This document shows positions 410-34,172 of a stretch of DNA of 64,000 bases, piece after piece. Source of the stretch: Isoetes taiwanensis (taxonomy: Eukaryota > Streptophyta > Lycopodiopsida > Isoetales > Isoetaceae); contig JAJEKV010000063.1 in assembly GCA_021234155.1 (NCBI GenBank), positions 7,005,710-7,069,709 on the forward strand. Direction: 5' to 3'. The translations under genes were made by a program, and so were the position numbers. The notes below the pieces were generated by a model, which searched no databases, had not been told where the DNA came from, and worked only from the letters and a program-made list of their open reading frames with translations. How positions within the stretch are numbered: the stretch's first letter is position 1; each line of letters opens with the position of its first letter.

Positions 410-3400
410 ATCTCAAGGGTATCACCTGGAACTTGCAGGGCAATAATTCTAATCTGAAAAGAGGAAGGGTGAAGGTTTGTCTTGTTTCTATGAATTTAGA
501 TTTCATTTTCTTCCAAGAGCACAAGATCCATGATGATAATATTGATAATATAATTAGAGAAGTGTTGCCTACTATTTTTAATCAGTGGTCTCTTAAAGCA
601 AATAATTCTTCGGCGGGTATTTCTATTGCTTGGCACAATAGGATTAATCTAAGCGATATTCAGATGATGCATGATGGTAGTAAAAGGTGGCAGATCTTAC
701 ATGGCAATATAGGGAACACTAGGATTGCTCTAGTGAATATTTATGCCTATCATCAGCCGGCTGAGAGGGCCCAGCTTTGGAATATTATAACTAACAGTTT
801 GAATAGTATCCCTTATGATGAGATTATAATGGGGGGAGACTTTAATATGGTTACTCATGATTATATGAGGAGTGCTAATTTCAGAGCCTTAGTGGGGAAG
901 AGAATGATAAGTGGATGACTTTGCTTACAAGCCATCACTTAAATTTGGCAAGAATCCAGCCTATCTGTTGTCTTCATGACAGGTTTTACCTTAGTGAATC
1001 CTTATGGAACAGCAGCTCTAGGGTCTCCAATCTCTCGAATTACACTATCTCTGATCACTATCCTCAGCTTATTAATATTAATGCCAACAATAATCAGAGG
1101 AAAAGGAATTCCTATTTTAAGCTTAATACTAATCTGCTGGATCATGAGGATTTCCTTACCAAGTTAGCTCAGATGTTGGATATGGAAGATAAGCCCAGTA
1201 ATGATATCGGGTGGATGGATTGGTGGGTTAGGACCTCTAAAAACATAAAGAATTGGTTAAAAGTATGGGGGAAGGAGATCTATCAGAAAGAGACTATTCA
1301 CCTGCAAGATTTGAGAAATCAGTACGGGACAGCTCAAGGCCAGAATAAGGAGGATCTTAAAATTCAGATCGAAAGGGAAGAAATCAGGATTGCAAAGGGT
1401 TGGAAGATTAAAGCCAAAGTCAAAGAGCTTATGGAAGATGACATGGCTAATTCCAAATACTTTTTCATTAAGGCCAAAGGAAGGATTAAGAAAAATCACA
1501 TTTATAGTGTCCTTTGGGAGGGAAATAATATTGTTGAAGACAATCAATTCAAAGAGGCTGCTAAGGAGCATTTTGTCAGAATTATGGGTACTATCAGGGA
1601 CACATTTATAACTTCATTGATATTCAGGCCAGAGTTACTAATGCCATGAACATCAGCATGTCTAGACCTTTCAACAATGAGGAGATTTTTAAAGTGCTCA
1701 ATGAAATGGAGAATGGCAAAACTCCTAGACCGAATGGCCTCCCTGCTGAATTCTTCAAGAAGGCATGGGGGCTTTTGGGTAATTTTATGGTTTCCATTGC
1801 TAATGAATTCCTACTAACCAAAATTTTGGATTGCAGGATCAACACTAGTCTTATTGCTCTCATCCCTAAAAATGACATGCCTATTTCTTTTTCAGATTAC
1901 AGGCCTATCTCACTTTCCAATGTGGTCTATAAGCTTATTTCAGGTTCAATTGCAGCTAGAGTCAAGCCTATTCTTGATGAGATCATAAGTAAAACTCAAA
2001 GTGCCTATTTGAAAGGGAGATATATCTTGGACAATGTTGCAGCAGCATCTCTAGGGATCAGCTGGGCCAAAGAAACTAAACAAAACATAGGGCTTCTGAA
2101 ATTGGACATCACCAAAGCCTTCGACACAGTAAGTTGGAAATTTTTGCAAGAATGAAGCCGGAGTTTAGGATTCTCGGAAGAGGTAATTTCTATTTTCATG
2201 GCTATTCTGAAAAACTCAAGATCGGCTGTCCTAATCAATGGAGAGTGCAGTCCCTTCTTTGATATAAAAAGAGGAGTTAAGCAAGGATGCCCTCTGGCAC
2301 CCTTCTTGTTTCTAATAGTCATGGAAGGTCTGCACAGTAATTTCCAAAAGCTTAGGAATCTCAATGAGGTTAAAGGGCTCAAACTCCCTCCTAATCAAGG
2401 GATGGAGGATATTCTCAATGTTCATTTTGCAGATGATACCTTTCTTTTTATGGATCTGGACAATCAATCTATTCAAACTACACAGCAGATTCTTGAGGAC
2501 TTTGGAAGATGCTCCGGTTGCAATATCAATCCGACCAAGACAAAGCTGATTTCAAGGGATCAGACTAAAGGGGAGCAATCAGCTTTATCCCTTGGATGTA
2601 TATATCTCTCTCCTACCACCAAAACCAAAATCTTGGGGATCCCCTATGCTATTAGGGTGAACGCGAGTGACCTGTGGGGGGATCTCTTGGACAAATTCTA
2701 CAGGAAGGTGGACTCCCTCAACTCTAAATTCCTTTCTAAGAATGGTAGGGCTATTCTTACAAACTCTGTTATTTCCTCTTCTCAGGTTTATCAGTCATCT
2801 ATTATCATGGCCCCTAAAAAGGTCTATTCTAAAATGCAAAGTATTATTGGTAGATTCATTGCAGGAGGAACTAACAGAAGATGCTGGATTCCAGTCTCCA
2901 TGAATGAGTGTTGTAAAACCAAAAGCATGGGAGGTTTGGGAGTTATTAACATTGAGAAGCAAGCAACTGCTCTAGCTGCTAAATACTTCTACAAGGCCTG
3001 TACAGATCAGATTAACCATCCGGCCAAAGCTCTGATCAAACATTATATTGGGAGATGCCATCCTTTTGGGTGGAGAGGGCTTAAGATGCACCTTCCTTAT
3101 AGTATTTTCTTTCCCTTCACCATCCCGAATTCCATCCCACTGATTATAAAAAAGTGGATCAGGGCGTGGCTCAAGGTTAAAGGAATGTATACTTGGAAGG
3201 AGGGCCTTTCTCAGGATCAACCAATCTTCTGGAGTCCTTCTCTTATTCTGGATGATCCCAATACTTGCTTGGCCTCTCATTTTCCTACCCTTACTAAGCA
3301 ATGGACTAACAGGGGAATTGTGTTCATCAGGGAGATTACCAATAATTTCGACTATCATACCTCGGTCCTAAGTGATCTGGGAGAGGAGTCTGAAACACTT

Positions 3401-3981
3401 TTCAATAGTATTACCCAGAGACTTGCTAGTGGTCAGTGGCACCATTCAGAAGATTCGTGGCACACAAATGGGTTCATTGGATACAAAGTTAAAATGGCTT
3501 ATAAATTCCTGAATAGAGATCAGGACATAACAATCCATATCAAATGGAATACTGATCCCTTGAGGATCAAAAGGAACCTCATCTTTCTATGGAAGTGTCC
3601 GATCCACCCAAAAGTCAAAGCCTTTATGTGGCAGCTTTGGCACAAGGCTCTTGCTGGAGGATGAACATGGCGGACTCTAACATTTGTGTGTGATGTATGC
3701 AGGATCAGGAAGATGAGAATCATCTTTTCAGAAACTGTTTATGGGCCGAATGGACTCTGGAGTTAGCTGAGACTGAGCTTAATATGCCCAATCTTAGGAC
3801 CATGAGCCCCACGGACTTTTTTCTTCCTGAAAACCCATCAAATTGGCGTATCTATCTTCTCCTTTGGAGAATGTGGAAGGGAAGGAATTCCCTGATCTTC
3901 AAAGAGGAGATTATATGGCCTCAGGCTATTATCGAGCAAACCAAATATGATATTAATGCCATGGTTCTATTGCGATAGCAA
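400..3981 (+). pseudogene. LINE (L1-type) ORF2: endonuclease, reverse transcriptase, zf-RVT
   Basis: Plant L1-like non-LTR retrotransposon polyprotein. The APE-type endonuclease comes first (GITWNLQG near 415, QEHK near 520, GGDFN near 835, SDHYP near 1050). The reverse transcriptase follows (DYRPISLSNV near 1895, LDITKAFDTVSW near 2105, GCPLAPFLF near 2290, catalytic FADD at 2425-2436). The C-terminal zf-RVT region is near 3540-3980 (PKVKAFMWQLWH, then NHLFRNC). The reading moves between frames near 915 and 1645, has a stop at 2153-2155 and another break near 3662. It is therefore inactive as read, although some breaks could be sequencing errors. Domain order and length are those of a complete plant LINE ORF2. 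Confidence 0.93.
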
Positions 3982-3988
3982 TAGAACC
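3963..3988. repeat. Perfect hairpin at the end of LINE ORF2
   Basis: Two perfect 11-bp arms (GGTTCTATTGC and its complement) surround a four-base loop, GATA. The second arm supplies the stop codon region of ORF2. Its position at the start of the LINE 3' UTR is compatible with an RNA structure, but no function can be shown. Confidence 0.7.
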
Positions 3989-4294
3989 AACATTCTTTGG
4001 ATGGGGACACCTATTCATGTTGGCTCTATTTATAGCCTCATTATGCTATGGCAGGTTATCGGCATTCTCTTGAGCTTCTACCTTGGTTGCTCCATCTTCT
4101 CTTGCCTTCTAGTGTCCCATCCCACCCTCCCCTATGGGTTGATCTGGGATCATGCTGTGAACTGTTAGATGTTTGTTCAATTTGGTATTTGTGATCTTTA
4201 TCTCTTAGGTAGGATTGCAGCCTTTGACTAGCAGGATTTGATGTTCATGATGAGCATCTAGGTTTGCATTACGGGTTTTCTATATATTTATATA

Positions 4295-4472
4295 TTCTCG
4301 GCGTGGCATTGTAGCCTCCGAGGCAGCACCTGTTGGAATTGGTCGGCTGTCTATTTTGTATATTTTCTCAGCGTGGCATTTTATGGCCTCTGGGACACCT
4401 ATCGGGAGTCTTGCCCCAAAGTGTTGGCTACTTGTTATTTATTTTCTCGGCGTGGCATTGTAGCCTCCGAGG
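4295..4472 (+). repeat. Three 29-bp repeats in the LINE 3' UTR
   Basis: Copies lie at 4295-4323, 4365-4393 and 4444-4472. Each begins TTCTCGGCGTGGCATT; copies 1 and 3 are identical and copy 2 has several substitutions. They are 70 and 79 bp apart, in the region expected to be the 3' UTR of the LINE. The 4473-5070 stretch after them holds no recognisable feature. Confidence 0.75.
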
Positions 4473-5099
4473 TAGCATCATATGGATGTTCTTTCTAGTT
4501 CAGCGATGTTTCTTTATGTTGGTTTTCTAGTCTCTATTCGAGTGGATGACTCATGGATATCCTTTCTACTTGGCTATATCATAAAAGTCCCTAAATCACT
4601 TACTAACATTTAACTGGGGAGCAATTTTGAGCTTGCAGGTTTTTTCGGCTGGTCTCAATTAGCACTTTTGTGATCGTTGTCATACTTTTTGAAAATTGTG
4701 TTGAGACGAGAACTCTCTGCTTGCATACATATGCTCCTCACAAACATGAATATGGGGTCGTGATAATGTTGTGCGAAGGGCTCTTGAAGGCCTATCGGTT
4801 GACATATAAAGAAGGTTAAGCTTTGCCACGACCTTTGCCTTGGTTCAATATTTATAGCAGATGGATTATACTTTTACCTTTTTATTATCATTTGATATGC
4901 TCTCGATGATTGTCTAGTTTCGGAGCATTTTTTAGATATCAATGGTTTTCAAATTCCTTACCCTAGTGGGAGGGGAGCCAATTTGTACTCAATGATTTTC
5001 CAGAGAGCTCAATGAGAATACCACTTCACGCTGATATGTGATCTAGGACCCATCCTAAGAATTGGATTGAGGAGATTTTCGATATTCATATTTGAACTC

Positions 5100-5510
5100 T
5101 TTCCATCTTTTTCTAACTTTACTTTGAATTTCTCAGGAAACATTCTGGTGTTGGTAAAGAAGCTGAAGTGGAAAAGAATCGACCTTCACTCTAATGCGCT
5201 ATGGCTTACTCAGTTTGGGGTCGAGATCCCGACAGCACATGAAGATGGATGCCACTGTGATTGCGCCTGTAACACAGCTTATGATGCAAAAAGGGATATT
5301 TTATGCGGGGCTAAGGATAAGAAAGGAAGATTTAATCCGGGGAAAGCTCACTTATGCAAGTGCCCATTCTGTCTATTCATAGTAGCTACAAAAGGAATGG
5401 GGAGAAAGGATCACGTTGAGGGCGAGCCCAAGAAAAGAAGATTTCTGGAATGATGGCTATGGTCATAAGAACTCTGTTTCTGGCTTTTAAAAATTAAACT
5501 CCTCTTTTGA
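5100..5510 (+). other. Unrecognised coding-like segment next to the transposon
   Basis: Two plus-strand frames look coding here. One gives a Cys-rich stretch (CHCDCAC, then CKCPFC). The other gives PVTQLMMQKGIFYAG, RIRKEDLIRG and later KEDFWNDGYGH. An intron acceptor-like CTCAG at about 5137 precedes it. I do not recognise the family. It ends about 260 bp before the left end of the large transposon, so it may be an exon of the sequence the transposon entered, or an older repeat. Confidence 0.3.
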
Positions 5511-5770
5511 CGTTGGTTCAGGCCTATAATAGGCCTTAATATTTTCTCTAGATATTATGTTGAAGGGTCTCCATAACCAACCCTACCCAAATCGGTTGCT
5601 TTTTGTAAACATATGTATATATACATATGTTAATATGTACACCTATATTTACATCAATATAAATACTACGCCTTCAATTAAAAAAAAAGAAAGATATGCA
5701 CTTGCCCAGTCATATCAAAGGAGAGCCTTATTAATTTTGTAAATGATAAAAATTTTGTTTAAATACAAAG
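5511..5770. other. AT-rich spacer with a TATATG microsatellite-like stretch
   Basis: Non-coding, AT-rich. The part around 5605-5665 alternates ATATGTATATATACATATG-like steps. The last four bases, 5767-5770 (AAAG), are the left flank repeat of the transposon that starts at 5771. Confidence 0.6.
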
Positions 5771-5802
5771 AACCATCATTCAATTAAATTGGGATTATGT
5801 CT
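5771..5802 (+). repeat. Left terminal inverted repeat of the 12.4-kb transposon
   Basis: 32 bases exactly complementary to 18149-18180. Homology stops abruptly at 5803, and AAAG sits just outside. The first palindrome-like GC core (ATCGCGCC) begins about 10 bp inside. Confidence 0.93.
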
Positions 5803-6702
5803 ATTCCAAAATCGCGCCGTATAAGCATTTTATTGACCATTATATTGAATTAACCACACTTTTGCACTGTGTTCATTTTCGGGCTAGGAATATGCATTTT
5901 ATGTGAAAATGCAAAGGCATTCAAATATTCGATGCAAATGACCCATATTATGACAGAATGTAGGCCGTTGAAAAAGCAGGAAATTGCCTATTAATGCGCA
6001 CATTCACGGACGACAACGAAATCTAAACATTGAAATTGTAATGCTTTACAAGTAAATAACAACAAGCAAGTTGCTACAAAACAGAGATTTTTGTGGTTCA
6101 AATCGAAGGCGTGGCGCGATTTGCTTGGCATAAATAACGATTATAATAGAACATAAACTACAAAAACTAATCGATTCATCGCCCTCAGCGCCAGAAAGCC
6201 CCGAGATCCCGCCGATCATGAACAAACCATGCTCGATTCCATATAAGATGGATTACAACATCAAAGGGATCAGGATAGAAGCGGACAGATTCATAGCAAC
6301 GACATCAAGCCAGCCCAAGTTCTATTTCTAGTTCGCACCGCAGAGGTCCGCATGGTTCATCTTGCGTAATAGAATGTGCCATAATAACAAGGAGAAGGCG
6401 GAGACCGGGTTCCATTCAGGGCTATTTCATGCATACCTATTTATACACACCAAAATAATTGACAAGATATACATACAAATTATTGCAAGTATAGCAAACC
6501 GCATACACATAATATAAAAAACAATACGCATACGTAACCAATAATGCTGATAAAAGAACACAATATATATTCAAAACCTTTCAGATAAAGTATATTTCAT
6601 ATTCAAAACTTTTTGAAAGTGTATTTCAGATACATATATATCAAAAAGTTCCCTTTCTAGAACGATTTTCTCAAGGTCCCTCACAATTTCCCGTCCGATC
6701 AA

Positions 6703-7264
6703 GTTAAGCGGGTATAGTGTTTGTATCTCTTCAACCGCTTTTTCCTGAAGCTATTTCCCAGAGACACTAACAAAGCGAAGTGAAGTCATCTTTGTCAAAA
6801 TCTTGAGGATGATAGGATGGCGGATTCAATGATCGTGGATGATTGAAGCAACACTTTAGAGCCGCCATCATCCACAATGATTATGCCTTCCTTATCCTCA
6901 ACACCTAGGGCATCCATCATGTTGCGCAAGCATTTCACAAATATCTTTTTACCCCGCTTCGGGTTCTTTAGGGTTTGTGAATGAAGCACATTTGCTTTGA
7001 TCCCGTGATGGACGCCCAATTTCTATTTAGCTCGTGCACTACTTTCAAAACATCCCAGATATTTCTATGCTCCATGGATGACCAAATTGCACAATCTAAA
7101 ACAGATCAAGGCCTGGTCCAACATCTCCTTCAGATAAGGGGCTGGTAAACATATTTTTAATACGGTCTCAAATGGTTGTTGCGATACCATGACTTTTCAA
7201 ACCGGGCTTTAGGTAATGTTCTACATAGCACACCATTCAAATCAAAGACCAAGACTTTTGGGGA
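6703..7264 (-). pseudogene. FCP1-like (HAD/NIF) phosphatase domain, broken
   Basis: Minus-strand translation shows the FCP1/NLI-interacting-factor phosphatase landmarks in order: VLVFDLNGVLCRT (D codon at 7241-7243), then AIWSSMEHRNIWDVL (WSS at 7075-7083), then IIVDD (about 6863-6877) followed by a Cys/Asn/Pro-rich end with PPSYP and DFDKDDF. Known family members dephosphorylate phosphoproteins such as the RNA polymerase II tail with a DxDx(T/V) motif. Here the second Asp is Asn (DLNG), so activity is uncertain. The frame changes at least twice between the landmarks. It is the most leftward gene of the transposon and probably the C-terminal domain of a longer minus-strand product; a similar domain occurs at 31.1-31.5 kb. 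Confidence 0.75.
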
Positions 7265-7601
7265 AGCCAAATCATTTTCGTAAGGAGAACAATAACGTAT
7301 GAGATGAAAGAAATGGAAAACAAAAACGCCGCCAGCGCGATTTCATTAATGATGCATGTCAACATAATTCAAAAGTATGTTCTAGGAAATTCAATCGCGC
7401 CAGCGCGATTTCTATATGCTTCTAGTTTGTAAAATGCATGGATATCAAAAAGGAACATTGTCACGATACCTTTCGCCTTCATCATTCCCCGTGTTCTCTT
7501 CATCCCTTGCATCTTTATTCCGAAGTTGCCTCCGGTCCGCTAGAAGCACCAACCACATCAGCTTGAGATTCAGACAAAGGTGAACTATGCTTGATAGTTC
7601 A

Positions 7602-9290
7602 TTACTCTTTACGCTTAACCCGGCTAGTGTTATCAGGTTTGGAGTCCGCTTCATCATCATTATTGTTATTATCATCATCCTTGGCATTGTCATCCGGGTC
7701 TATATTTTCAGGGCCAAGAATGTTCACAGGCATGTCGATAGGTACTTGGAGATCTGCACCTTTCGTCCATGTCATCCATGATGTTGGAGCCAAGCAATGC
7801 CCGCCTCGTAATCTCCCGCTCCTTAAGCAAATCAAGGTATTTCGCCTTAGAGCTAGAAGCTTTGTTTTTGCATCGCCGATTGGTCCCCTAGGGGCTTCCT
7901 CTAGTACTTTCTCAAAGAAGAGGTCCAAAAATTTTCGCTCAATCATCGGAGACGACGCCCGGCATTTCCTTGCTAACTTCAAAGCTTCTCTACCGATGTA
8001 ACCTCCAACGTGAAGTTCCCAGCAAGTTGTTCCCAATGGACAAAATGCTTCAATGAGATACTGGGAAAGGTCCATAGAGAACCCGTTCTTGTTTAGCTTC
8101 CCCTTATGTGAAGTTAGGAGCTCATACTTAATGTGGCCCACAAGAACCGGGTCGCCCTCGCTTTCTTCCTCTTCTTCCTCTTCCTCCTCTAACTCTTCCA
8201 CGACCTTGCCCTTCCCTTGTCTTCTTGCTCCGTGATAGAAGACGCGCAGATGCGTTCATCTAACTGATAGCACTGCCATGCTAGTTTCTCTCCATCTGCT
8301 TTTCCCTTAAGCCTTTCATATTCCTTATCATCCATAATGGCTATCATAATAATAAGCACATGAGAAATTTTACTTGCTATGCTGAAGTCACTGTCCTTGG
8401 TTTCATCTATGAGGATCGCCTGTCGTATGACTTTCACGCATTCTAAGTCATTTGCAGCACTTAGAGCATATGCATAGGACATGTCGGAGGGACATATAGT
8501 GACGATTGTGTAATGCATTTCGCCAGGCAACCACCGATATGTTGAAGAACGATATAGTCTTCAAGCGACCATCCGGGCGCCGACTATCAAGCACTAAGAG
8601 TGTGATATCATGAGGACCTTCACCCACTTCTGGCAAGGCACACTTGAAACCAAAGGGACACTTGATAAAAAATGTGGATTCCGCCTCCCGGTCCGCTTCA
8701 CCACCAACGCGACTTTTCGCTTCAAGTCGGATGCAACTTTTGTGTGAAGCCCATCGATCTTTGCAACGTTCTTCAACTTCGGCCGCTTGACAAAGTCCTT
8801 GGACCAAAATACATACTTCTTTTTAGGTCGCCGTTGGAGACGTTATACTTTTGCATTAGTCCTAACTCCGACAACGACCACCACTGGATGTAAGCCTTTG
8901 CAATTCCTCACCAACCGCCTTCTTGAGCACTCTAATATTCTTCACTCGTCGATGCATCTTCAAAGGATTCCATAGCCTTTGTTGTTTGAGGTTTTCTTGT
9001 AAAGGATTTCCTTTTCTCGATTAACCTATCCGGGATCGAGATGAGTTCTTGATCTTCCAATCCCTGGGCCTTCCTCATCTCTGTTATATGGATATCAAAA
9101 ATTGATGTGTCAACATGAGGAAATCTTCCTTGTGAATCTGGCAACTTCTTCTCCACGTAGGCGTCCCAGAATTCATTCCATTTCTCCCATACGGGATCTG
9201 AAGCAAAAACTATCTTGCAGGCATCCTTGGGCACAATTGGTTCTTCGGCAGCATCACCCTTTTCATCTCCTTTTTTTTTTCTTTGATCTG
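7602..9290 (-). pseudogene. Unrecognised minus-strand protein of the transposon, middle part
   Basis: Overlapping minus-strand frames hand over to each other and each looks coding. In protein order: PKDACKIVFASDPVWEKWNEF (about 9234-9170), a basic KLKNVAKIDGLHTK stretch (about 8770), GEGPHDITLLVLDSRRPDG (about 8620), GEMHYTIVTICPSDMSYAYAL (about 8520), a Glu run (8201-8160), then GHIKYELLTSHKGKL and CPLGTTCWELHVGGYIGREAL (about 8110-7990), ending in an Asp/Asn-rich tail. The frame changes near 8200, 8530 and 8900. I do not recognise the family. It lies upstream of the FCP1-like domain on the same strand and could belong to the same gene. Confidence 0.5.
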
Positions 9291-9530
9291 GTGCTCTTGG
9301 TCTTGTCCTGTATTATAGTCTGACTAAGTGTCCTTTCCAGCAACTTGAATTCAACGCTTTTGGACTGGCCCTGTCTGGTAGGCATTGGCTTCCCATATTC
9401 AATCCACTGGTTCCGAGCATGCCGAAGTTTCTCTATATAGGGACTGCAAGGAATAACTTCGTTAGCTTTATAATCGTGAATTCAAACAATCCTTCTAGTT
9501 TATAATCGCGCCACGCGCGATTTCATATTA

Positions 9531-9563
9531 GAAGGCAAATCGCGCCAGGCGCGATTTGCCTTC
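9531..9563. repeat. Perfect 33-nt palindrome
   Basis: Two exact 16-base arms (GAAGGCAAATCGCGCC and its complement) around a single central A. It is the longest perfect member of the palindrome family and lies 8 bp from another copy at 9504-9523. Confidence 0.95.
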
Positions 9564-9614
9564 GCTAAATAGCAAAGGGTTTTTGAAATAGTAGATGGTT
9601 CTAGTCGATAAGCA

Positions 9615-9697
9615 GGCCGGCGCTGATTTTATATTAGAATACAAATTGCGCGTGGCTCAACTTGTATTCTAATATAAAATCGCGCCAGGCGCGATTT
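9615..9697. repeat. Long hairpin with palindrome cores at its base
   Basis: Perfect 20-bp arms (9625-9644 and 9662-9681) surround a 17-nt loop. Pairing extends outward, with gaps, into a GC core on each side (GGCCGGCGC on the left, a full palindrome at 9678-9697 on the right). The loop itself contains a degenerate core. Confidence 0.85.
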
Positions 9698-9959
9698 GCT
9701 TATTTGACGGGAAACGTCTACCATCCCAGGAACCCATTGCCTTCTACTATGAAATCGCGCTTGGCGCGATTTGGTAATACGAAAAATAAAAATGTGGGAA
9801 GAGAATTACCTTTTGTATAGGAAAGTTTTTCCCATGTCATTTAGGAGTGCTTATTTGTTGACCCGCGCCAGAACCGCAGCTTCGGATGTCTGCCTTATAG
9901 AACAACTGATTCCCAGTATGCTGTGCCTTCTTGATGAGAATCTTCTGGGCCTCTATTGA

Positions 9960-10760
9960 ATGCTGGCCATCTATTATCATAATTCATAAAATGTATGTCT
10001 GGGTTCTCGATGAAGTCCTCCAAATTTTGCTCCGTGATGATTACCTTTTTGTTTTGGTATCGTGAAGGCACTACATCGGGCGTGCATTGGCACCTGCCTG
10101 GATTTTCGGATCATGCCGTTCAATATCTCCAAGGAGTGCCGCTTGTCATACCTTTCGCTGATATAAATAGCTTTAGTGGACTGAAAAGCCCTGCCCACGC
10201 TGGATCGATGTGTGAAGCCGAGGCCCGTGGATACTTGTCGGCATATTTCTTGCTTTGCTCATTGCCTCCAACCGCCCGCCTTGTCATCGCCACTTGTAAG
10301 GCCCTGCCACTTCAGTAGTTTCCGCCTCTAGAGCTAGCTTCTTCCTTGTCCTTCACTTTTGTAAGTAGACACCGCCCAGGGCCTCGTGCTAATGGCTCGT
10401 CGAGCAATTTGAAGCCCCTCGCATATTCTTCTAGGAGTCAATGGCTCGCCACTGTCCCGTACCCAAATTTGAAGAGGTTATCGGCCACGTCGTCCCGATC
10501 TTAAAGCGATCTCTTTAAAAGAGCTCGTGACTGCATCGATTGATCTTCTTTAGGCTTTTCTTATGTTTTTGGCCCACTTCAACTAGCATGTAACGTAAAG
10601 AATCGTCATGTACTTCACATGTAATAAGAATTCCTCGCTTCTTCATTTGATCGTCTCTCTTAACCTTGACATGGATATGAGGTCCTGTCTTCCCACCAGT
10701 TTTGAATATCTCCACATACCATTTCGACCCCTCTATAAGATCTTCTTCCGGACATGGAGG
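9960..10760 (-). pseudogene. Unrecognised minus-strand protein of the transposon, upstream part
   Basis: Coding-looking minus-strand pieces in order: EGSKWYVEIFKTGGKTGPHI then VKVKRDDQMKKRG and VHDDSLRYMLVEVGQKHKKS (about 10755-10550); DDVADNLFKFGYGTVAS (about 10495); RRAVGGNEQSKKYADKYPRA and PLKLFISAK (about 10280-10160); AIYISERYDKRHSLEILNGM (about 10165-10110); and VVPSRYQNKKVIITEQNLED then IENPDIHFMNYDN (about 10070-9975). Several frame changes separate them. No family is recognised. Strand and order fit one multi-exon or frame-disrupted gene with the segments at 7602-9290 and 12518-12913. Confidence 0.4.
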
Positions 10761-11109
10761 TTCTACGAGCCTTTATTATTCCGGATGTATCTTCTAACGC
10801 CAATACATGCCGCAGTCTCAGAATAAAGAACATCTTCTTTCGCCCTTTGCTTTTTCTCGATGTAGAGGTCTCGCCTTGCTTGGTCCTCCCTCTTTTGATT
10901 GTCTTTTGTGATCCCGTGGAAATTACAAAGACATGGGTTAATCTTTTATGCTCGATAAATGCCGCCGACACATATATTAACAAAAACGCCGCTTGGCGCG
11001 ATTTGAAAATGGATACACAAAGAAGTTCATTTAGTTTATTGGGGTCGGGGGCCAGCGCCGTTTTGTCCCAAATCAAAATGCAACAAAAATACGCTTGGCA
11101 CGCGTTTTA

Positions 11110-12240
11110 GAAGTGACCTGAAAGATAAAGAAACTAATGTAATGCCTAATTAAATCAAGGCTGTATGCGTTTTTCGTCCGAATCAAAATGCTCAGGAAAC
11201 AACTAACTATAAAAAATGCAACTTAAAGAGTTGAATCTTCATCAGAGGACACAACTAACTATACAAAACACAACTAGCTACTGAATACTGTTCAGCTAAG
11301 TATACAAGCTTCAAGCAAAGACATACAAACATTAAAAGAGAAACCAAATGTACACATTAAGCATTTGTTTCCATACATTTTTGGGACATATGAACTCAAA
11401 CATTAGAGGACACATGCTTCTTATTGGATAATAACTATATTATTACAGAAAAACATCCTAAAAACCAAACAAAAAAAGGGACACGTAAATCAATTACAAA
11501 CAAAAATGATCAATTACCCGAGGCGCTTTGTTGGATTTGTGCTTTCGCTTGTTCAGCAGCCTCCGTGCATGGATTTGTGCTTTAGTCTGTCGCCCACCTC
11601 TACCCGCCTCTACCGCCGATCCTCTAGACGCCATAGAACCGCAAGTGCGGATAATATGAGACGGGATTTTGGTTTAAACTTATATGTATCGCTCATAATC
11701 TTGGCGCCGATTTACAACCAGAATTCAAATTCGGCCCTTTTAAATTTATACCGCCTTTAATTAACCGCCTGGCCCCGCTCATTTACAAATTTAAATTGTG
11801 TTTTTCTTTTTAGTGCAATTTCAAGATACCAATTAATTATTAATTTCAAGAAACGCATATGTGGCAATCTACTACCACCTAATCGGCCACCTACTATCAG
11901 AGCGCCCAAGATCATTCCTACTATCAGAGCGCCCAAGAACAATCGACTATCAGAGCGCCCAAGATCCGTCTACAACGCCTTCAATCCCATTCGATCGAGC
12001 CGCCTTCAATCGAATCCAAGTTCTATGTGTCATGGTGTTCCTCTTGGAAACAGTTTCTGTAAGATTTCCATTATAAACTGCAATTATGAGGATGAGGCTC
12101 TTCCAAGAAGACATCCCGGTGGCGATACAGTTGGTGAAAGCGTAGGCACATTTGTAGCATGGCCAAAAGAACGTCTGAAAAAGGTATGTATATTTGGATA
12201 TTCAAAAAAATAGAATAAATTATAACATCTGCGTGATGTT
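11110..12240. other. Transposon interior without a recognisable gene
   Basis: AT-rich. Contains three near-repeats of CTATCAGAGCGCCCAAGA around 11893-11965. No reliable coding frame or RNA gene is seen. It may be intron sequence of the minus-strand gene. Confidence 0.5.
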
Positions 12241-12248
12241 GTGAATTT

Positions 12249-12363
12249 TGAATTCTGTGATGGTCTTTAGCCAGTCTTATCAACCCCATGAAACTACACA
12301 TTAATGAAAATGTGTAGTTTCTTGGGGTTAGTCATACTGGCTGGAGGGCATCACAGGATTCAA
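12249..12363. other. Long imperfect fold-back, miRNA-precursor-like
   Basis: Arms of about 55 nt (12249-12303 and 12309-12363) pair at roughly 45 positions around a short AT-rich loop. The apical 13 bp (GAAACTACACATT) are perfect and mismatches are scattered singly. Size and pairing resemble a plant MIR hairpin or the inverted repeat of a small MITE. It sits inside the transposon between coding segments. Expression cannot be judged from sequence. Confidence 0.6.
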
Positions 12364-12517
12364 TGTTTTCGACATTGCATATAAAAAAAAATAATAAACT
12401 AATGACAGAAAAGTATAGTGCAAAATTGCGCCAGGCGCGAGTTTGTATTCATATTCCAAAAAAGTATATGTACATTTCTTCTGCAAAAAATGCGCCAGGC
12501 GCGAATTCTTTCTATCT

Positions 12518-12913
12518 CTACAATATGTCACACAGGCCTACTTCATCGGCCCAATTCCGCAAGAAGTCCCATCTGAACCACCCTGATATGACAGGATCCT
12601 CATCTTCCCTGCGGATGTCGAGTCTCCAAACCAGAGTGTTGTATCGATCCCTGATACTATAAATTAAATCCTCGTACTTATTTGTTGGCATGAGCCTTAC
12701 TAAGAGCATGAGGAGTCGGATATGTCCATAGATGCGATGAAAGTGTTCCCATGGCCCCTGATACAGACTGTCTACTGGATTCTCCAACTCTCTTTGAACG
12801 TTTTGAACAGCACAATCAAGTAATATCTTGTACAGGGTCCAGAGTTGATGGTCGTCCAGGGGAAGTGTATTTGATCTAGAAGCAGCCAGTGTCCATGCAT
12901 AAGGAAAATCCAT
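12518..12913 (-). CDS. Unrecognised 131-codon exon/ORF of the transposon
   Basis: An uninterrupted minus-strand frame starting MDFPYAWTLAASRS and ending FLRNWADEVGLCDIL. It is rich in Trp, Leu and Arg (LMLLVRLMPTNKYEDLIYSI, then RDRYNTLVWRLDIRREDED) and appears to be a soluble helical domain, with no signal peptide. It is the most upstream clear coding segment on the minus strand and may be the first exon of the gene that ends in the FCP1-like domain, or a separate small protein. No family recognised. Palindromes flank it on both sides. Confidence 0.5.
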   Translation of the reverse strand: MDFPYAWTLAASRSNTLPLDDHQLWTLYKILLDCAVQNVQRELENPVDSLYQGPWEHFHRIYGHIRLLMLLVRLMPTNKYEDLIYSIRDRYNTLVWRLDIRREDEDPVISGWFRWDFLRNWADEVGLCDIL

Positions 12914-13307
12914 GGCACTAGAAGGAGAGAAATTAAGTAATTAGCAAATAATATATTACTCTCCCCATAAAACTATTCTGAACATACATATTTCAAAACG
13001 CGCCAGGCGTGCTTTGTGTTTTTCAAATATCTATTTCAAACGCGCCTGGCGCGATTTGTATAGAGCCGTATGAAAAGAAAAGCCGAGCCGAGCTTTGATT
13101 AATCTAGTGGAAAAACGTAACCCAAAAATAGAAATGCGCCAAGCGCGATTTCTCCCATTCCAACATATTATTCTAACAAAATGCATAATGCAGAATGCAG
13201 AATGCAGAATTCAAAATATAAAGCCAGTATTAGTTCATTGTTTAGTTCAATATTTAGTTCATTGTTTTAGTTCATTATTTAGAGCAGATAGAGGAAGAGC
13301 TAGTGAA

Positions 13308-13353
13308 GATCTATGATCTATGATCTATGATCATAGATCATAGATCATAGATC
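13308..13353. repeat. Perfect 46-nt palindrome of GATCTAT units
   Basis: Three GATCTAT heptamers, a central GATC, then three ATAGATC heptamers. Further degenerate units run to about 13430. It lies between the minus-strand coding region and the plus-strand transposase gene. Confidence 0.95.
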
Positions 13354-13425
13354 ATAGAGCAAGATCATAGAGCAGATATGATCTATGATCTATGATTTCA
13401 GATCTAAGATATGATCTATGATTTC

Positions 13426-13593
13426 AGATCATTAATTAGAACAGATAGAGGAAGAGCTAGTGAAATAGAATAACTTCATTATTTTAGATCATTAATTAGA
13501 ACAGATAGAGGAAGAGCTAGTGAAATAGAATAACTTCATTATTTTAGATCATTAATTAGAACAGATAGAGGAAGAGCTAGTGAAATAGAATAA
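13426..13593 (+). repeat. 60-bp tandem repeat, about 2.8 copies
   Basis: Units at 13426-13485, 13486-13545 and 13546-13593 are identical over the shared length; each contains ACAGATAGAGGAAGAGCTAG. A partial copy of this core stands at about 13283-13305. Identical copies imply recent amplification or an assembly effect. Confidence 0.95.
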
Positions 13594-13749
13594 GAGCAGA
13601 TCATATAGGCAAGATAAGAGTTCATGTAAAAGTAACTGATTAAACTGTTTTGCTGAAGGTGGTAAATATACTGATGCATGTAAAAGTAAATAACATGCTT
13701 TCTGTAAAATAACTACTTTATGTAAAGAATGAGAGATACTAACCTATTT

Positions 13750-14400
13750 GTGTTCTGTACCTGAGAATTGAGCCTTTGACTTCGAGCCGAAACCAAAAGA
13801 TCGAAAACCAAAGTTGATTTGAGCCTTAAGAAGCCGAGAAAAGCAATAGCAGCCTAGAAGCCGAGAAGCTTTTTTAACACAAAAACCAAAGTTATTCAAA
13901 GTCAGAGAGATTGTACAGAGCCGAAAAGCCAAAAAAACCAGAGACATTCTTGCTGTAACATTCTTGTAATATATCCTACAAACCTTGGAGCCGAAAACAC
14001 CTTTGAGCCGAAAACCCTAAAGCAGATGATTGTAGAAGTTTAAAAAGCTCGAAAAGCCGAAGTTTAAAGCATATAGAAGTTTAGATTGAGTCGAGATTGA
14101 TGCGATAGAAGCCGAGAAGAAGATAGAAGTCGAGATTGAAGCCGAGAAAAACCACGTGAGATTGAAGCGCCGAGAAAAACCACAGAGATTGTGGAGCCAC
14201 AGAGATTGAAGCGAAAGTGAAAGCAGAAAGCGAAAGTGAAAGCCACAGAGATTGAAGCGAAAGCAGTTCAAAAGCGAAAGGTGATAGATCGAAAAGCGCA
14301 CTGCAGGTCGGGTTCGAAGAGAGACGTAAAAGCCGGAAAAGTTGGAAAGGGATTGTAAACCGGAAATAATAATCCGCTTTTTAAAATTTTTCAGATCAGC
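13750..14400. repeat. GA-rich low-complexity tract between the divergent genes
   Basis: Purine-rich on the plus strand with many degenerate GCCGAGAA, GCCGAAAA and GAGATTGAAGCGAAAG units. Open frames here are by-products of the composition. Its place between the divergent coding regions makes it a candidate promoter/5' UTR region. Confidence 0.6.
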
Positions 14401-14814
14401 CATAATAACGCTTGAACATTTATTGCAAGGGTTATATAAGTTATAAGATTTAAGGTTAATAGTTTTAAGGTTTATAAGTTAAAGTTATTAGTTAAGGTTA
14501 ATATTTTTAAGTTCATAAATAAGGTTATAAGTTTAAAAATTTATGAATTTGAATTTAGAAGTTTTAAGTTTTAGAAGTTTTAGGCTAAGGTTATATTTAT
14601 TGAAGGTTAGAAGTTTTAACCTTAAAACTTCTAACCTTAAAAGTGCTAACCTAAAGCCTTAAAGTTGTTTTTAAGGTTACAACATTTAAGGTTATTATAA
14701 GTTAATATATTATAGGTTAACTTATTATTATTATAGATTAAGTTATTATAGGTTATTATTAAGGTTAACTTTCATTTAAGAACATGTTAGGGAGATGTTA
14801 TTTGGATATGCTAA

Positions 14815-14970
14815 TTTACTATAGGCATTTACCTAATTTACCTAATTTACCTAATTTATAGGCATTTACCTAATTTATAGGCATTTACCTAATTTACCTA
14901 ATTTATAGGCATTTACCTAATTTACTATTTGGATGTTATTTGGATATGCTAATTTACCTAATTTATTCAT
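14815..14970 (+). repeat. Tandem ATTTACCTA repeats before the transposase exon
   Basis: ATTTACCTA units and a longer version with TATAGGC recur across the stretch. They run into a pyrimidine-rich ...TTCATTTTAG acceptor at 14975, so the repeats probably lie in an intron or leader of the transposase gene. The 14400-14815 part before it is AT-rich with GGTTATA and TTTAAG motifs and has no gene. Confidence 0.8.
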
Positions 14971-14975
14971 TTTAG

Positions 14976-17928
14976 GTCAATGGCATGCAAAATGCTAAAT
15001 CCCCCAAGGCCCCCAATGATGGTGATCAAGGCAAGGAAAAATCCCCAACTAATGAAGATGACAAAGATGATGGGAAAGGAAAGGAAAAGACCAGAAATGA
15101 AAAGGATGAAGATGACAAAGATGATGGCAAAGGAAAGGAAAAGACCTCAAATGAAAAGGATGATGCCACAGGAAAGGAAATTGTACTTTATACTCGGGTC
15201 GATTGGAAAACAAAAGGTCAAGATCCCGCATGCATGCAACAGAGGCAAGAGGGAGAAGGGATTATTGTTCTAGCAGATCCTATCAATGCAAGTTGAATGA
15301 TGAAAGATTAGGGAGGACAAAGTTAGGTGTGGCAATCTCAAAATTATATGACAATTGGAAGGAAAAGGGTTCAGTGCAAACAAGAATGCCTAGCTTGTGT
15401 GAAGCAACTAGAGGTTCCAACTATTGTTGCATGGCCTAGGGGGAAGATTCAACCGGAGGGGAACTACACGTTTCCTTTAGATGTAGAACCATTGTCAACA
15501 ATGTTCACACAGTGTAGCAAGAGGCCACTTCCAACTTTCAAACATTATCCCACCAAAAGATGCAAGTCAGATTATGATTGTTCTCCTGAAGCCCTGATGA
15601 AGGTTAGAGGAAGTGAATGTTGTTGGGCCTCCTGTATTAGAATGTTCACAATAGAGGAGTTGGTGGGAGCAAGAGCTACATATCAGGAACATAAGTGTGA
15701 TAGCAGGAGGAATTTCATGTACACCATATTTGGCTATGCAATTCAGGATGAAAGATCAAAGAAGAAAAGATTCCCATTGAATGGAAAGTGGATATGTTCA
15801 AAAGCATGGATGGCTATACATGGAATTCCAACCTCTTCTTGGCACAACTGGCAAAAGAGACATGAAAATGGTAGTAAAATTGCATTGCATGGGAACACTG
15901 GCCTGGTAAGGCCTACCTCAAGAACTATAGCTGCAAAGGAAATATTTGAAAGATATGTGGATTTCAATGCAGAAAATATGCCACATAAGAGTAAGAAGGA
16001 TGAACAGGGTAGAGTTATTGTTGAAAAGAGATTGCCATCCCATTATATTAGAGGAAATAAATGCATTGCTTCGGGAACTTGGAGTGGCCTCTATATCCCA
16101 GCCCAGTTTTAGTAGGCTATGGAATAAGCATTTCAAGCATGTGACCATAGCAACTTCAAACAACTTTGCCAAGTGCAATTTATGTGCTAAGCTGAAGGAG
16201 ACACTAGATAAGACTGTGCAACCAAGTCTAAGGGCAAAGATAAGGGAACATATGAAGGACCATATGACAGATCAACTATCATGTAGATAAACTTATTGGA
16301 TGTGGAGGACCTTATCTGCAATGGAACCTAATAACTATCTATGTATTATACATGATAAAATGGACCAACGTAAGACTTGTCTTCCACAATTCAAGTACAT
16401 TCCTAAGTCATGTGGAAGATCATACCCTTTGCGATTTCAATGATCGGGGCAATATTGCATGGGCAGTCTGCACCTATTATGGCCATTTCAGTTTAGAGTT
16501 GTGGAGTGATGGTCCAGATTTTCACATTGGGAGTATCATGAGGTGTTTAAGAAACTATGAGAAGGGTTACAATGGTCACCCATGGGATCCTACAAGCCTA
16601 GCCGTGCACTACATAGTGCATTGTTGGATGGAACCCCTAATAGTATTGAAAAGTTTAGCAAGGCAAGATTTAGGAGGAATGGACCTAATGAACATGTTGG
16701 AGCTTCAACATCTCGTGCTAAACCTCGAGATGCCCGTAAAGCTCCTCTTGCAACTAGATAATTGTGCTGGTCAAAATAAGAACAGTGGATGTTTTCTTTC
16801 CTATCCTACTTAACAATTTGTGGGTATTTTTGAAAGAGTCAATTTGGGGTTCCTAATGCCGTGACATACTCATGAGGATGTGGATGCATTGTTTGGAAAA
16901 TATAGTCATGTATTGAGACGGCAGACAGCTACCAACTTTCCTGTGCTATTGGAAATATTTCATGGATGTACAAATCCATCTCCTATAGGATCTATCATAG
17001 AAGAAGTGCCCGATTGGAAGAGTTTTGTGGATGGTTATGCTCTCGACATGGAAGGTCATTCTAGACCTCTTCAATTCACTTTTTGGGTGAGAGAAGGGAT
17101 TCCAATCATGCAATGGAAAATGAGACCTTCAGAGGAGATTTGGAGAGGTGGGGCAGAAATTTGGCATGTGGATGCAAATGGCAAGCCTATGATACCTCCC
17201 CGGTCAACCAAAAGCTCTAAAACCAACTGAAGAAGTCAAGCAATTGGGATTGACTAAGGATGGCATCAATGACTACATCAAGCATTGGCAAACTAATTCA
17301 GATGAGACTAATCGTGCATTGATAGATTATTGGAAGAAGGCGATCAACTTGTTGGATGAGGTAGACACATCCTCAGAAGAGGTGAAAGAAGGGTGGTTCC
17401 CTAAAAGTAAGTGGAAAACATTTGGGCCGATTTAAGATGATGGTACCATTAGTAGCATTGTGAAGGCATATGCTCCTCCTCAACTGATAAACACTATGTT
17501 GGTCCTAAGAAGGATAGGCCAAAATATCTAGGCATGGATTGTTATGAACCTTCTAATCGACGTGGAGTGCCACCAATTTGTAGTAGTAAAACCAAAGCAG
17601 ATCTAGAGACCTATCCAAAGGTGGTTGGGATGGACTATCTCGGATATTTGCAAAGAAGAAGGTGATGTTAACTTCAATAAGGTGCGCGTGGAATGGTGGT
17701 GTCCAAAGACATCGCTTGAGTAATGTCACCGATAAAGAAAGATATTCAGATTGTTGGACAAAGAGGTGGAGGAGAAATCCAAGTGATCCTGATCTTTGGC
17801 TAGACATTGAAACCGTATTGTACTCGTGGACTCCAAAAACTATTCCTAGTAAAACAGCGAGAGTTACAATACCTCAGGATGTAAGGAATAAGGTTCTCAT
17901 ATCCTTGGGGATGCTAGTGGAAAAATGA
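14976..17928 (+). pseudogene. DUF7869-type DDE-like putative transposase, frame-disrupted
   Basis: Putative transposase. After a likely splice acceptor at 14974-14975 comes a charged start (MQNAKSPKAPNDG) with two copies of EDDKDDGKGKEKT. A Cys-containing part follows (CCWASCIRMFTIEELVGAR, about 15620; WICSKAWMAIHGIPTSSWHN, about 15790), then SFSRLW...HV with FAKCNLC (16105-16190). Catalytic-looking motifs stand in the family order: HDKMD at 16351-16365, LDNCAGQNKN at 16754-16783, HTHEDVDALF from 16865. These match the conserved blocks of the DUF7869 family as I know it, which I infer to be an RNase-H-like fold. The frame is broken near 15430, 16050, 16290-16440, 16800, 17225 and after 17435. 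The C-terminus reads to 17925 (LISLGMLVEK). It sits next to the right TIR, as transposases often do. Confidence 0.8.
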
Positions 17929-17959
17929 AAAACAATTACTATGTATCTTTTCTACAGTT

Positions 17960-17965
17960 AATAAA
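17960..17965 (+). terminator. Polyadenylation signal AATAAA
   Basis: AATAAA occurs 32 bp after the stop codon of the putative transposase, with T-rich sequence following. It is the natural 3' end signal for that gene. Confidence 0.55.
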
Positions 17966-18076
17966 AGTTGTGTACTACTTGAGTTCCATGATATATGATT
18001 TTGTAATTTGAAGTTAAGGTGTGAGTTTATATTCCCGTGTGTGATTATATGTTAACGTCTATTCTAGTCTAAGGGC

Positions 18077-18123
18077 AACAAAGTTACTAAAAAAGTGAAT
18101 TTAACAAAGTTACTAAAAAAGTG
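18077..18123 (+). repeat. Two 21-bp subterminal repeats
   Basis: AACAAAGTTACTAAAAAAGTG occurs at 18077-18097 and 18103-18123, 26 bp apart, just inside the right TIR. Subterminal repeats are often transposase-binding sites in DNA transposons; no matching pair was seen at the left end. Confidence 0.85.
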
Positions 18124-18148
18124 CAATATAAAATTTATCCCAAAATTA

Positions 18149-18180
18149 AGACATAATCCCAATTTAATTGAATGATGGTT
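18149..18180 (-). repeat. Right terminal inverted repeat of the 12.4-kb transposon
   Basis: Exact reverse complement of 5771-5802, followed by AAAG at 18181-18184. Two tandem 21-bp subterminal repeats lie just inside (18077-18123). Confidence 0.93.
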
Positions 18181-18291
18181 AAAGTGTTTTTGAGTAGATT
18201 ATATGTGTAAACGTACTTAACTAAGCTGAGTTAGCAAGTAACGGCTTTTGTTTTAGTTAAATTGGACATTTTTAGAGCAAGTAGTGAGGAT

Positions 18292-18358
18292 GTCTCACAC
18301 GTCGCGCCAGAAGCAAAACCAAGACTCTAGGTCTTGACCTTGGCGCAACGTGTGAGAC
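18292..18358. repeat. Hairpin with CTCACACG / CGTGTGAG ends, copy 1
   Basis: Imperfect inverted repeat: GTCTCACACGTCGCGCCA pairs with TGGCGCAACGTGTGAGAC, and a second palindrome (AAGACTCTAGGTCTT) is in the centre. It lies about 110 bp outside the transposon and 189 bp from the next copy. Confidence 0.8.
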
Positions 18359-18479: not shown

Positions 18480-18548
18480 TGTCTCACACGTCGCGCCAGA
18501 AGCCAAACCAAAAATTTATGTTTTGCCCTGGGCGCATCATGTGAGACA
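18480..18548. repeat. Hairpin with CTCACACG / ATGTGAG ends, copy 2
   Basis: TGTCTCACACGTCGCGCC pairs with GGGCGCATCATGTGAGACA. The left arm is nearly identical to copy 1, while the loop differs. The 18550-18750 sequence that follows reads like an LTR or 5' leader of a plant retrotransposon. Confidence 0.8.
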
Positions 18549-18945
18549 TCCAAACTTTGAACCTCCATAACTTGAGCTACAAAGCTCCAAATCACCTGAA
18601 ATTTGTTGCAATAGGACCGTTAGACAGTTTAGAATCCATTTATGACCTCAAATTAGGCTAGAAATGTCAAACCCCAGCTCAAAATGACCAAAATTGCTCA
18701 AACCCTTGAATTGTTTTTCCAAACTGGTTTGTTTGTAAATAGAAGCATACCCCATTAGTACCTCGCAAGTATTGCTCTAGGCTCGAAGCTGATGCCTCAC
18801 TCCTAGATAGAAGTCCTCAAGAACACCCCTTTGTTATAGTCATCTAGACCTCAGCATAGCAACCCAAGTTCAACTGTTCGTACATCACCTCTGCTCATGC
18901 CAAAGGCATAAACCTTGACCTAATTATGTGTCCTTCTAATAGAGT

Positions 18946-26138: not shown

Positions 26139-27432
26139 AACATTACATTGTAATTTATGTATTGTAGTCTTGTATGCCATATCCAGTCTCCAAATTCACA
26201 ATCACCAAAGCGTGTGTTCTTAAGTTGCATTTATGTAAAATAACTACCAGGTCCAAAACCAAGCATTGGATTTTGAATTTAAAAAAACCTTGAGGTTTCT
26301 TCCTCACGGGGGACTTCCCTTCATTTATTTTCTATTCAATTTGGAGTATTCTAATAGATTGTATATTATAGAAGCTATCAATGCCTTTTAAAGCCTTTTT
26401 TTTTTCCTGTTTGGTTTCCAACAAAAACTTTGACTTGCAACCATGGATTTTGTTCATGATTTAGCTTATCTTCTGGTAAAAGATTCAAGAAGGTTGGCTT
26501 GATATATAAAACATTCATGCATGCAGACCATTCATGCTTTATTTGTGAATTGTCTAGACTAAGTTTTGTAATTGCGTTCTTACTGCGACTGCAATGGAAT
26601 GTTAGCAGCTCAAGTAAGAGGAGGAAACCTGTCAAGCTTTCATTTGAAAACTGAGAACACTACAAAGGCGCAAAGATTAACAAAATAAAGTTCACATAGA
26701 AAAACGTTTGTATAGGGACGGCGCATCACGAATGCATTTACGTACAGCTATAAAATATATGAAGCCAATGACACGTCACTTACACTTAAAATATAATGAA
26801 TACCAATTTCCAACCATAATGATTGCTTCCTGGCAAACGTCTAGGCTCATAAAATATTTTGCCATGAAGTGTGGGAACACCTTCAGCTACATTATCTGTT
26901 CCAATTGTGATCCACAAATTTTATATGGCTAAACTGTTCATGCTAGCATTGAGCACCAGCAACGCATGTTGTAAGGATAAGGCCAAGAAGCAATATATTA
27001 AATATAACTTGATCACATGTGCTTGGTATATGGACATCCACAAATACCCAAACTTCTATATATTGCCTAACATAGCAGGGTGTAAATTCTATAGTGGTGT
27101 ACAGAAAGCATTGTCCGGACATGTGCTTTATGTGCTGAAACTGCTTAGTACCTCCTGGACGTGTGACGTCCAACTGAATTAAAACAGAATTGGCATGCAC
27201 CAAGAATAGTATATGAAATTCCGGAATGGCAGGGATCAGTGACTAGGATCTCCAAAGACGCGGGAACTCCGTTGGCGGGGATGGAGTTTCCTTTAGTGGT
27301 TGGCGGGAGAAATCAGAATTCGGAATTGCAATTAGACCAATTCATACAATTCGAACAAATTTTGCATTGTTTCAATTGAATTCTCAATTTGGAATTGTAA
27401 TTCAAGTCGTGAAATCTGTCTCGTGAATTTCA
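26139..27432. other. Intergenic, no recognisable gene
   Basis: AT-rich sequence after the LTR. Short open frames are not conserved-looking. The last 200 bp before 27433 (GGCGGGGATGG, TGGCGGGAGAAA) could include the promoter and leader of the next gene, but no clear TATA box was chosen. Confidence 0.5.
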
Positions 27433-30400: not shown

Positions 30401-30582
30401 ACTATTACAAACAATTGGAAGGAGAATTAAGTTTTCAACCTCTTTTAGACAAACCACTGGCCAGAGTGTACAACCACCTCATTAGGCTTTGCAAATTTGA
30501 CATGACTTTGGTGAAAGACAACCTGTATAGTATGGATGAGCAGACATGCCAACAAATAATGAGCAGCATGCCTTCAAGTTGA
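27433..30582 (+). pseudogene. Transposase-like gene of a DFAENY/SDG/HGKG family, five probable exons
   Basis: Exon 1 (27433-28152) is basic and helical, with an HTH-like stretch (QSAIARLLSIPRRTVAAAFQ). Exon 2 (28246-28593) reads KEYPEINI then FEKLKPSYIRRLQERETCCC and a Cys-rich CKCACKVCG. Exon 3 is about 28747-28815. Exon 4 (28884-29658) carries DFAENYGF (29090-29107), SDGCSSQFK (29387-) and HGKGEHDGQGAVVKRF (29496-), which I take as the DDE-like catalytic blocks. Exon 5 (29903-30582) joins in phase as IHR-YFWEID. This motif series matches a family I know mainly from animal proteins lacking a common name. In-frame stops at 28274 and 29282 and several frame changes mark it as broken or mis-sequenced. 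Acidic C-terminal tail. Confidence 0.75.
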
Positions 30583-30729
30583 TAACAGTTTAGGAACAGC
30601 AATTGTGCAAAGAAGATAAAAATATTCATTGATAACTTAATAAGTATATCCAGATCTAAAGTATATATCAAAATGTATACAAAATTGGCCAGCCTACATG
30701 AACAACAAAAATGGCTGGCTCTCAGTTGA

Positions 30730-33700: not shown

Positions 33701-34172
33701 TGTAAAATTTTTTTGTTCAAAATAAAAGATTCTACTGCCAACTTCTTTTCCTCTTCAGCTTTATCATCTTCTTCTCTGTGTTACTTTTTGGTTCCAATTT
33801 TTCAGGCTTCCTACACCTCCTATATTTCATAATTTGAGCTCCAGCAGCAGCCCAGTTTACCTTGTGCTTTTCAGGATTTCTTTATGCAAATATGCAATTT
33901 TCCCATGCAAAAGCATAGGTTATCTGTTTTCTGACCTCATTATTGCATAATCCCTCACTCTGATAAAGCTTTCTTATCAATGATTGTAATTCTTCTTTCA
34001 GATGTGGCTGTACCAGCGAGATTTTTATACTGTGTCTGGAATTTATCTCCTCTCTCCAAACTGATAGCCAATCTTCAGTGGTGATGTTTTTCTCTAAATA
34101 TTTCATTTTTAGAGCCGGAATTAGTCCATCATCCGATAATCCATGCATTTCCACAAAATCTTCTACTGTCAC
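30730..34172 (-). pseudogene. FCP1-like phosphatase gene with coiled-coil N-terminal half
   Basis: Multi-segment minus-strand gene. It starts MTVEDFVEMHGLSDDGLI (34172), continues through RKQITYAFAWENCIFA and RNPEKHKVNWAAAGAQIMKY (to about 33790), then a coiled-coil (33741-33178, ending CAACGLAFSSN), a Lys-rich nuclear-type stretch (32486-32298) and TIVQPT-like repeats (31854-31560). It ends in an FCP1/HAD domain: LLIMDLNGVLVKTY (D at 31482-31484), AIWSSMTAF (WSS at 31317-31325), VDDSVYKTFLSPPYTTVI (about 31066-31119). As in the 7-kb copy, the DxD motif is DLNG, so catalysis is doubtful. A MITE lies in the gene. The end is about 150 bp from the end of the convergent transposase-like gene. Confidence 0.7.
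32762..33084. mobile_element. hAT-type MITE, 323 bp
   Basis: Perfect 13-bp terminal inverted repeats (CAGGGATAGGTTC) and a perfect 8-bp target duplication AGCAGAAC (32754-32761 and 33085-33092), both diagnostic of the hAT superfamily. No coding capacity. The centre has four copies of GCGTACGCGAAA (from 32887, 32910, 32930 and 32953) and several AATACGTATT-like palindromes. It sits between the coiled-coil and Lys-rich segments of the FCP1-like gene, probably in an intron. Confidence 0.95.

Follow-up and report, generated by a model that had tools for sequence, protein, structure and literature searches.

The 64,000-nucleotide stretch of Isoetes taiwanensis DNA analysed here (contig JAJEKV010000063.1; referred to as the window hereafter) contains, between positions 5771 and 18180, a DNA element with inverted ends and two divergent genes. 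The right-hand gene encodes a protein of the DUF7869 family, and the left-hand gene, on the minus strand, ends in a NIF/FCP1-like domain of the HAD type. An earlier note, made from the sequence of the window, had regarded this element as a DNA transposon in which the DUF7869 protein is the transposase and a phosphatase-like gene is the cargo. The positions of the features are given in Table 1.

Ends, genomic copies and target sites

The terminal inverted repeats (TIRs), described as perfect in the earlier note, were found to be complementary at 32 of 32 positions, with 12,346 bp between them. The TIR sequence occurs at just two sites in the window when up to three mismatches are allowed, and in none of 100 shuffles. 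The identical 4-bp flanks (AAAG) also proved to be an exact duplication, of which no longer version is possible. A search of the DNA for Rfam families gave nothing. Palindromic AATCGCGCC / GGCGCGATT sites recur inside the element (9504–9771, and also 5810, 7393, 10995 and 13048), and hairpin repeats of the CACACGTCGCGCC...GGCGCAACGTGTGAG type are located immediately beyond its right end (18283–18358 and 18481–18556).

Table 1 Features of the element and the transposase-like gene of a second element in the window
Feature	Position	Strand	Basis
Left target-site duplication copy, AAAG	5767–5770	.	Flank comparison
Left TIR, 32 bp	5771–5802	+	Inverted-repeat search, shuffle control, genome matches
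Left gene, C-terminal tail	6574–6747	-	Reading frames
Left gene, NIF/FCP1-like HAD domain, broken; motif I DLNGVL, IWSSM, VDD	6798–7276	-	Profile; motif in 11 of 11 copies
Left gene, N-terminal region of about 600 amino acids, without known domain	7565–9367	-	tblastn with the frame of copy L025
DUF7869 transposase gene (putative), broken by frameshifts and stops	14985–17925	+	PF25273 profile, relatives
HDKMD; first Asp (16354–16356) is the candidate catalytic D1	16351–16365	+	Alignment of relatives
Asp of LDNC (LDNCAGQNKN), candidate D2	16757–16759	+	Invariant in 36 aligned relatives
HTHEDVD; Glu (16874–16876) is the candidate third acid	16865–16885	+	Alignment of relatives
Right TIR, 32 bp	18149–18180	-	Inverted-repeat search, shuffle control, other genomic copies
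Right target-site duplication copy, AAAG	18181–18184	.	Flank comparison
Second element, transposase-like gene, DFAENYGF and WSDGCSSQFKS	27427 to about 29600	+	By eye

When the assembly (1,658,258,908 bases in 1,110 contigs) was searched with the 32-bp TIR, exact matches numbered 685 on each strand, while the reversed control gave 0; this result and the shuffles rule out a chance origin of the TIRs. Among the 100 sites listed of these 1,370, 23 neighbouring pairs of plus- and minus-strand TIRs less than 28 kb apart on one contig were recognised by eye: the shortest measures 12.0 kb, 15 span 12.0–12.9 kb, and no short derivatives were seen among those 100 sites. The left 130 bp, used as a DNA query, gave 913 candidates in the genome, 40 of which were scored, at 100% (3) or 99% (37) identity. 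Ten plus-strand copies were fetched from these 40, and together with the window copy they constitute the 11 copies examined. In this sample, similarity governed the choice of the left ends, not of the right ends.

Both TIRs, each matching at 32 of 32 positions, were present within the 19.7 kb taken in 8 of the 10 fetched copies, which are 11.8–19.0 kb long. In copy L027 the outer 5 bp of the right TIR are gone, and the stretch fetched for copy L023 stops short of the right end. The eight two-ended copies are each flanked by a perfect 4-bp target-site duplication (TSD), namely, CTAC, TAGA, TTAT, ACTG, AATT, AGGA, CAGC and ATTC; with the window counted, this makes 9 of 9. In L021, the element lies within a tandem repeat of 36-bp units and splits one of them, and the intact unit on either side equals the split unit with a single AGGA, which is the equivalent of an empty site. 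The mobility and the 4-bp duplication proposed earlier are borne out by these copies, their flanks and the unsplit target: the window element is mobile and is one of a large family of big transposons.

The right ends are perfect in 8 of the 9 copies in which they were seen, while the coding bins diverge from the window by 2–26% (gaps ignored). Because the ends are perfect despite this divergence, we infer that the examined copies were inserted recently and that most of their sequence differences predate the insertion. Relative to the window, copies L017 and L023 have diverged by 23–26% in the element bins 1830–5500, by 2–5% in the transposase bins and by no more than 1% in the first 130 bp, which suggests that halves of the element have been swapped between lineages, giving mosaics.

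The DUF7869 gene and the NIF-type gene

The right-hand gene matches the PF25273 (DUF7869) profile with 52.1 bits at 16865–17230, against a cut-off of 26, and with 21.1 bits, under the cut-off, at 16268–16813; three of its relatives score 146–171 bits. The motifs HDKMD, LDNCAGQNKN and HTHEDVD reported in the earlier note are present; the intact gene is not, being interrupted by frameshifts and stops. The search for relatives gave 38 (best E 2.8e-121). The candidate D1 and D2 are invariant in the aligned relatives, and so is the Glu taken as the candidate third acid, which lies 38 residues after D2 and is followed by an adjacent, nearly invariant Asp. One distant relative has SDGMA for HDKMD, so just the first Asp is retained. 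In the predicted models of the relatives, the expected RNase-H-like core of the DDE/D type was found, with the acids at the three canonical places, and the longer relatives show, in addition, a Tudor-like N-terminal fold and a BAH-like C-terminal fold. A sequence search of the solved structures gave nothing below E 0.2 (best E 0.29), and Foldseek alone gave no match under E 0.001 in the PDB or among the viral models. In viral contigs, 22 pattern matches and 0 relatives were obtained. As for Ginger-type elements, whose transposase is Gypsy-integrase-like, no integrase family was listed in the Pfam scans, which report just the matches passing HMMER's filters. DUF7869 and the string HTHEDVD are not mentioned in the literature searched, which does not establish their absence from print. 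Two distant relatives (L001 and L002) lie on contigs filed as metagenome-assembled genomes of Bacteroidetes, where eukaryotic contamination is probable as a guess; clear TIRs were not found on these contigs.

The TIRs, the TSD, the many copies and the DDE/D-like core in the predicted models support the assignment in the earlier note, and the DUF7869 protein looks like the enzyme moving the element. It is very improbable that DUF7869 is cargo and that another gene of the element is the transposase. Unassigned reading frames in the middle of the 12-kb element (about 9.4–14.9 kb) leave some room for such a gene; however, the DUF7869 bins are the coding part most alike between the copies (95–98%), and DUF7869 is the sole element protein found with a DDE/D-like fold, the models having left out the 618-amino-acid region of the left gene described below.

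An uninterrupted transposase was found in 0 of the 11 copies, the longest frame being 372 amino acids. Assembly indel noise was rejected as the chief reason why the genes are broken, because the window has an open frame of 502 amino acids and the frames that stay open differ from copy to copy. Since none of the 11 copies has an uninterrupted transposase, the simplest reading is movement in trans: the examined copies, including that of the window, were probably moved by unsampled copies. The observed/expected ratio of CpG is 0.13–0.46 over 14976–18180, against 0.63–1.32 over 5771–14975 of the same element, as if the transposase gene alone had long been methylated.

The left gene runs leftwards between about 9.37 and 6.57 kb. 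Its read-through in the window, with X at the joins, scores 23.1 bits for PF03031 (NIF) against a cut-off of 21.8, and the open NIF domain of copy L023 (stretch L024) scores 61.8 bits (E 8.1e-17). The minus-strand FCP1-like HAD domain (DLNGVL, WSS, VDD) of the earlier note thus stands, but not as part of an intact gene. In copy L025, the N-terminal frame is open for 618 amino acids, and tblastn with this frame detected homologous regions in the window and in each of the 9 remaining fetched copies. This region has no match in Pfam and no sequence match among the solved structures (PDB), and the NIF copies likewise have no sequence matches among the latter. A search with the whole read-through gene, which low-complexity words may have swamped, scored 7,995 candidates and gave no relatives at E 0.001.

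HAD phosphatases of the FCP1/SCP class carry the motif I DxDx[TV], in which the second Asp (third residue) is the general acid/base. In the NIF domain of the element, VFDLNGVLC is found in 11 of 11 copies (PVFDLNGVLC in L015); DLNGV stands where DxDx[TV] is expected, and, judged from the sequences, Asn replaces the acid/base Asp in all of them. The NIF family match and the nucleophile Asp, motif II Ser, Lys and motif IV DD, seen by eye to be retained in the open copy, would be in keeping with an active phosphatase on the host transcription machinery. This is, however, unlikely in view of the Asn, which recurs in the second element described below. As regards the phosphatase-like cargo of the earlier note, the gene is well attested and the word phosphatase is weakened.

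For the selection on these genes, the ratios of nonsynonymous to synonymous divergence (dN/dS) were estimated by the NG86 method on codon alignments filtered by identity. The transposase gave 18 defined values of 0.06–0.90 (one undefined), the N-terminal part of the left gene 7 defined values of 0.07–0.70 (two undefined), and the NIF domain 0.27 and 0.80. Compared with the divergent version in L017, the N-terminal part gave 0.10 and 0.07 at dS values of 1.75 and 2.04, which are saturated. In all 30 tblastn comparisons (10 each for the 618-amino-acid region, NIF and the transposase), variability was highest at the third codon position, in several of them narrowly; these alignments are unfiltered and favour amino-acid matches. 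The variability at the three positions was 0.33/0.25/0.54 between L025 and L017, and 0.050/0.044/0.053 between the transposases of L025 and the window.

These values show signs of purifying selection on the left gene at the sequence level. Because of the low dN/dS, the third-position excess and the recognisable NIF gene in 11 of 11 copies, we take the left gene to be old and under selection, not a recent passenger. The same evidence makes it doubtful that the gene was captured by chance and is retained merely by lying between the ends, even though it is broken in the window copy and a homologous NIF gene in a different element 9 kb off indicates that such genes may be often captured.

A second element and other features of the window

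The different element is a second multi-copy DNA transposon, located at 27078–34425. Its ends are a 21-bp pair matched at 20 of 21 positions (0 in 60 shuffles of the region). Its left end gave 143 candidates in the genome, 40 of which were scored, at 95–100% identity, and 3 of the 5 right ends sought were found. By eye, the flanks show a possible duplication of CAATG (5 bp) in one copy and of TAGTTG (6 bp) in another, and no clear duplication in a third copy or in the window. The transposase-like gene matched no Pfam family above the cut-off. The minus-strand NIF gene (E 9.2e-12), also with DLNGVL, is 27% identical to that of the DUF7869 element (E 2e-8 when read-through pieces of the two were compared with each other); read through as a broken gene, it scores 15.7 bits against 135 for FCP1_euk and 25.3 against 139 for HIF-SF_euk of NCBIfam. 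A RING-like frame was seen by eye near 33.1–33.3 kb.

Elsewhere in the window, a tandem array of about four units of about 1.56 kb, 93–95% identical, occupies about 20.2–25.9 kb, and two blocks of about 6 kb (about 50.7–56.9 and 58.0–64.0 kb) are 79% identical, in the same orientation at an offset of about 7.3 kb. A 420-bp unit at 35539–35958 resembles a miniature inverted-repeat transposable element: it contains G+C-rich repeats, and its ends form a perfect inverted pair of 25 bp. The frames at 879–3661, including the one open for 502 amino acids, resemble, by eye alone, a plant reverse transcriptase of the long interspersed nuclear element type.

Proposed mechanism and known systems

Our explanation, to which we assign a probability of about 0.88, is that these elements form a giant cut-and-paste transposon family with DUF7869 as the DDE/D-type transposase and a selected NIF-domain partner gene, the examined copies having moved in trans. 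The DUF7869 protein would bind the 32-bp TIRs, excise the element and insert it via a 4-bp staggered cut, and the Tudor-like and BAH-like parts of the longer relatives may read histone marks and thereby choose or tolerate chromatin. The left gene, with its novel region and altered HAD active site, would be a selected component of the element; its protein may bind phosphoproteins, such as the RNA polymerase II tail or silencing factors, without efficient dephosphorylation. Broken copies, that of the window included, would probably be mobilised in trans. A bolder version is rather unlikely: that DUF7869 defines a DDE superfamily of giant elements of its own, in which a transposase reading chromatin with its Tudor-like and BAH-like parts requires as partner a NIF pseudophosphatase shielding the element from silencing by holding phosphorylated host proteins, and that elements in the same genome gained such a protein for the same purpose.

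The uncharacterised DUF7869 domain thereby gains a testable function, that of a DDE/D transposase, possibly chromatin-reading, and is linked with exactly defined ends and a 4-bp duplication; in this one genome, identical ends of the family number more than 1,000. The second, altered phosphatase-like gene appears to have been maintained in working form during evolution; with its signs of selection inside a transposon, it represents a kind of cargo with a possible action on host transcription. That two different elements share NIF-type cargo suggests a common need.

The PF25273 proteins, described in Pfam only as having a domain of unknown function, share with the right-hand gene the profile and the conserved HDKMD, LDN and HTHED motifs. 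The left gene resembles the PF03031 phosphatases in the profile and in the residues retained by eye, and differs from them in motif I and in its novel region of about 600 amino acids. Mariner/Tc1 transposases and retroviral integrases resemble the modelled DUF7869 proteins in the RNase-H core, the order of the acids and the spacing of D2 and Glu; the 4-bp TSD, the absence of any solved structure matching in sequence at E <0.2, and the predicted Tudor-like and BAH-like parts of the long relatives set the present system apart.

The closest known system appears to be Sola, and the remark in the earlier note that no described superfamily with this layout is known is not supported in that form. Sola elements are described with DDD transposases, 4-bp TSDs and lengths mostly of 2–9 kb, with some above 15 kb (PMC10741241, PMC12477816), and TIRs of 11–1124 bp, a range that includes the present 32 bp; they are present in moss (PMC10741241), a Sola1 element being reported in Physcomitrella. 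Sola1-1_Ec32 of Ectocarpus is 21.5 kb long, and its cargo gene and transposase gene lie on opposite strands; the transposases of the giant families in that genome are often dead, and giant elements there are proposed to move in trans (PMC12477816). We slightly favour the possibility that the present element is itself a member of Sola (Sola1 or Sola2), with DUF7869 as the Sola transposase and NIF as an accessory gene; this would be compatible with our explanation, and the likeness is one to the descriptions of Sola, not to its protein sequences. Against membership, the third acid here appears to be Glu, with the nearly invariant Asp next to it, whereas Sola is called DDD; the Sola2 elements of one description have AT-rich TSDs, whereas CTAC, ACTG and CAGC occur here. 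The cargo also differs: that of Sola1-1_Ec32 is a ParB-like and DNA methyltransferase protein, not NIF (PMC12477816), and the Sola text examined contains no NIF cargo. In its 4-bp TSD, putative acidic-triad transposase, large size and opposite-strand second gene, the element most resembles the giant Sola elements, and it would work like one of them.
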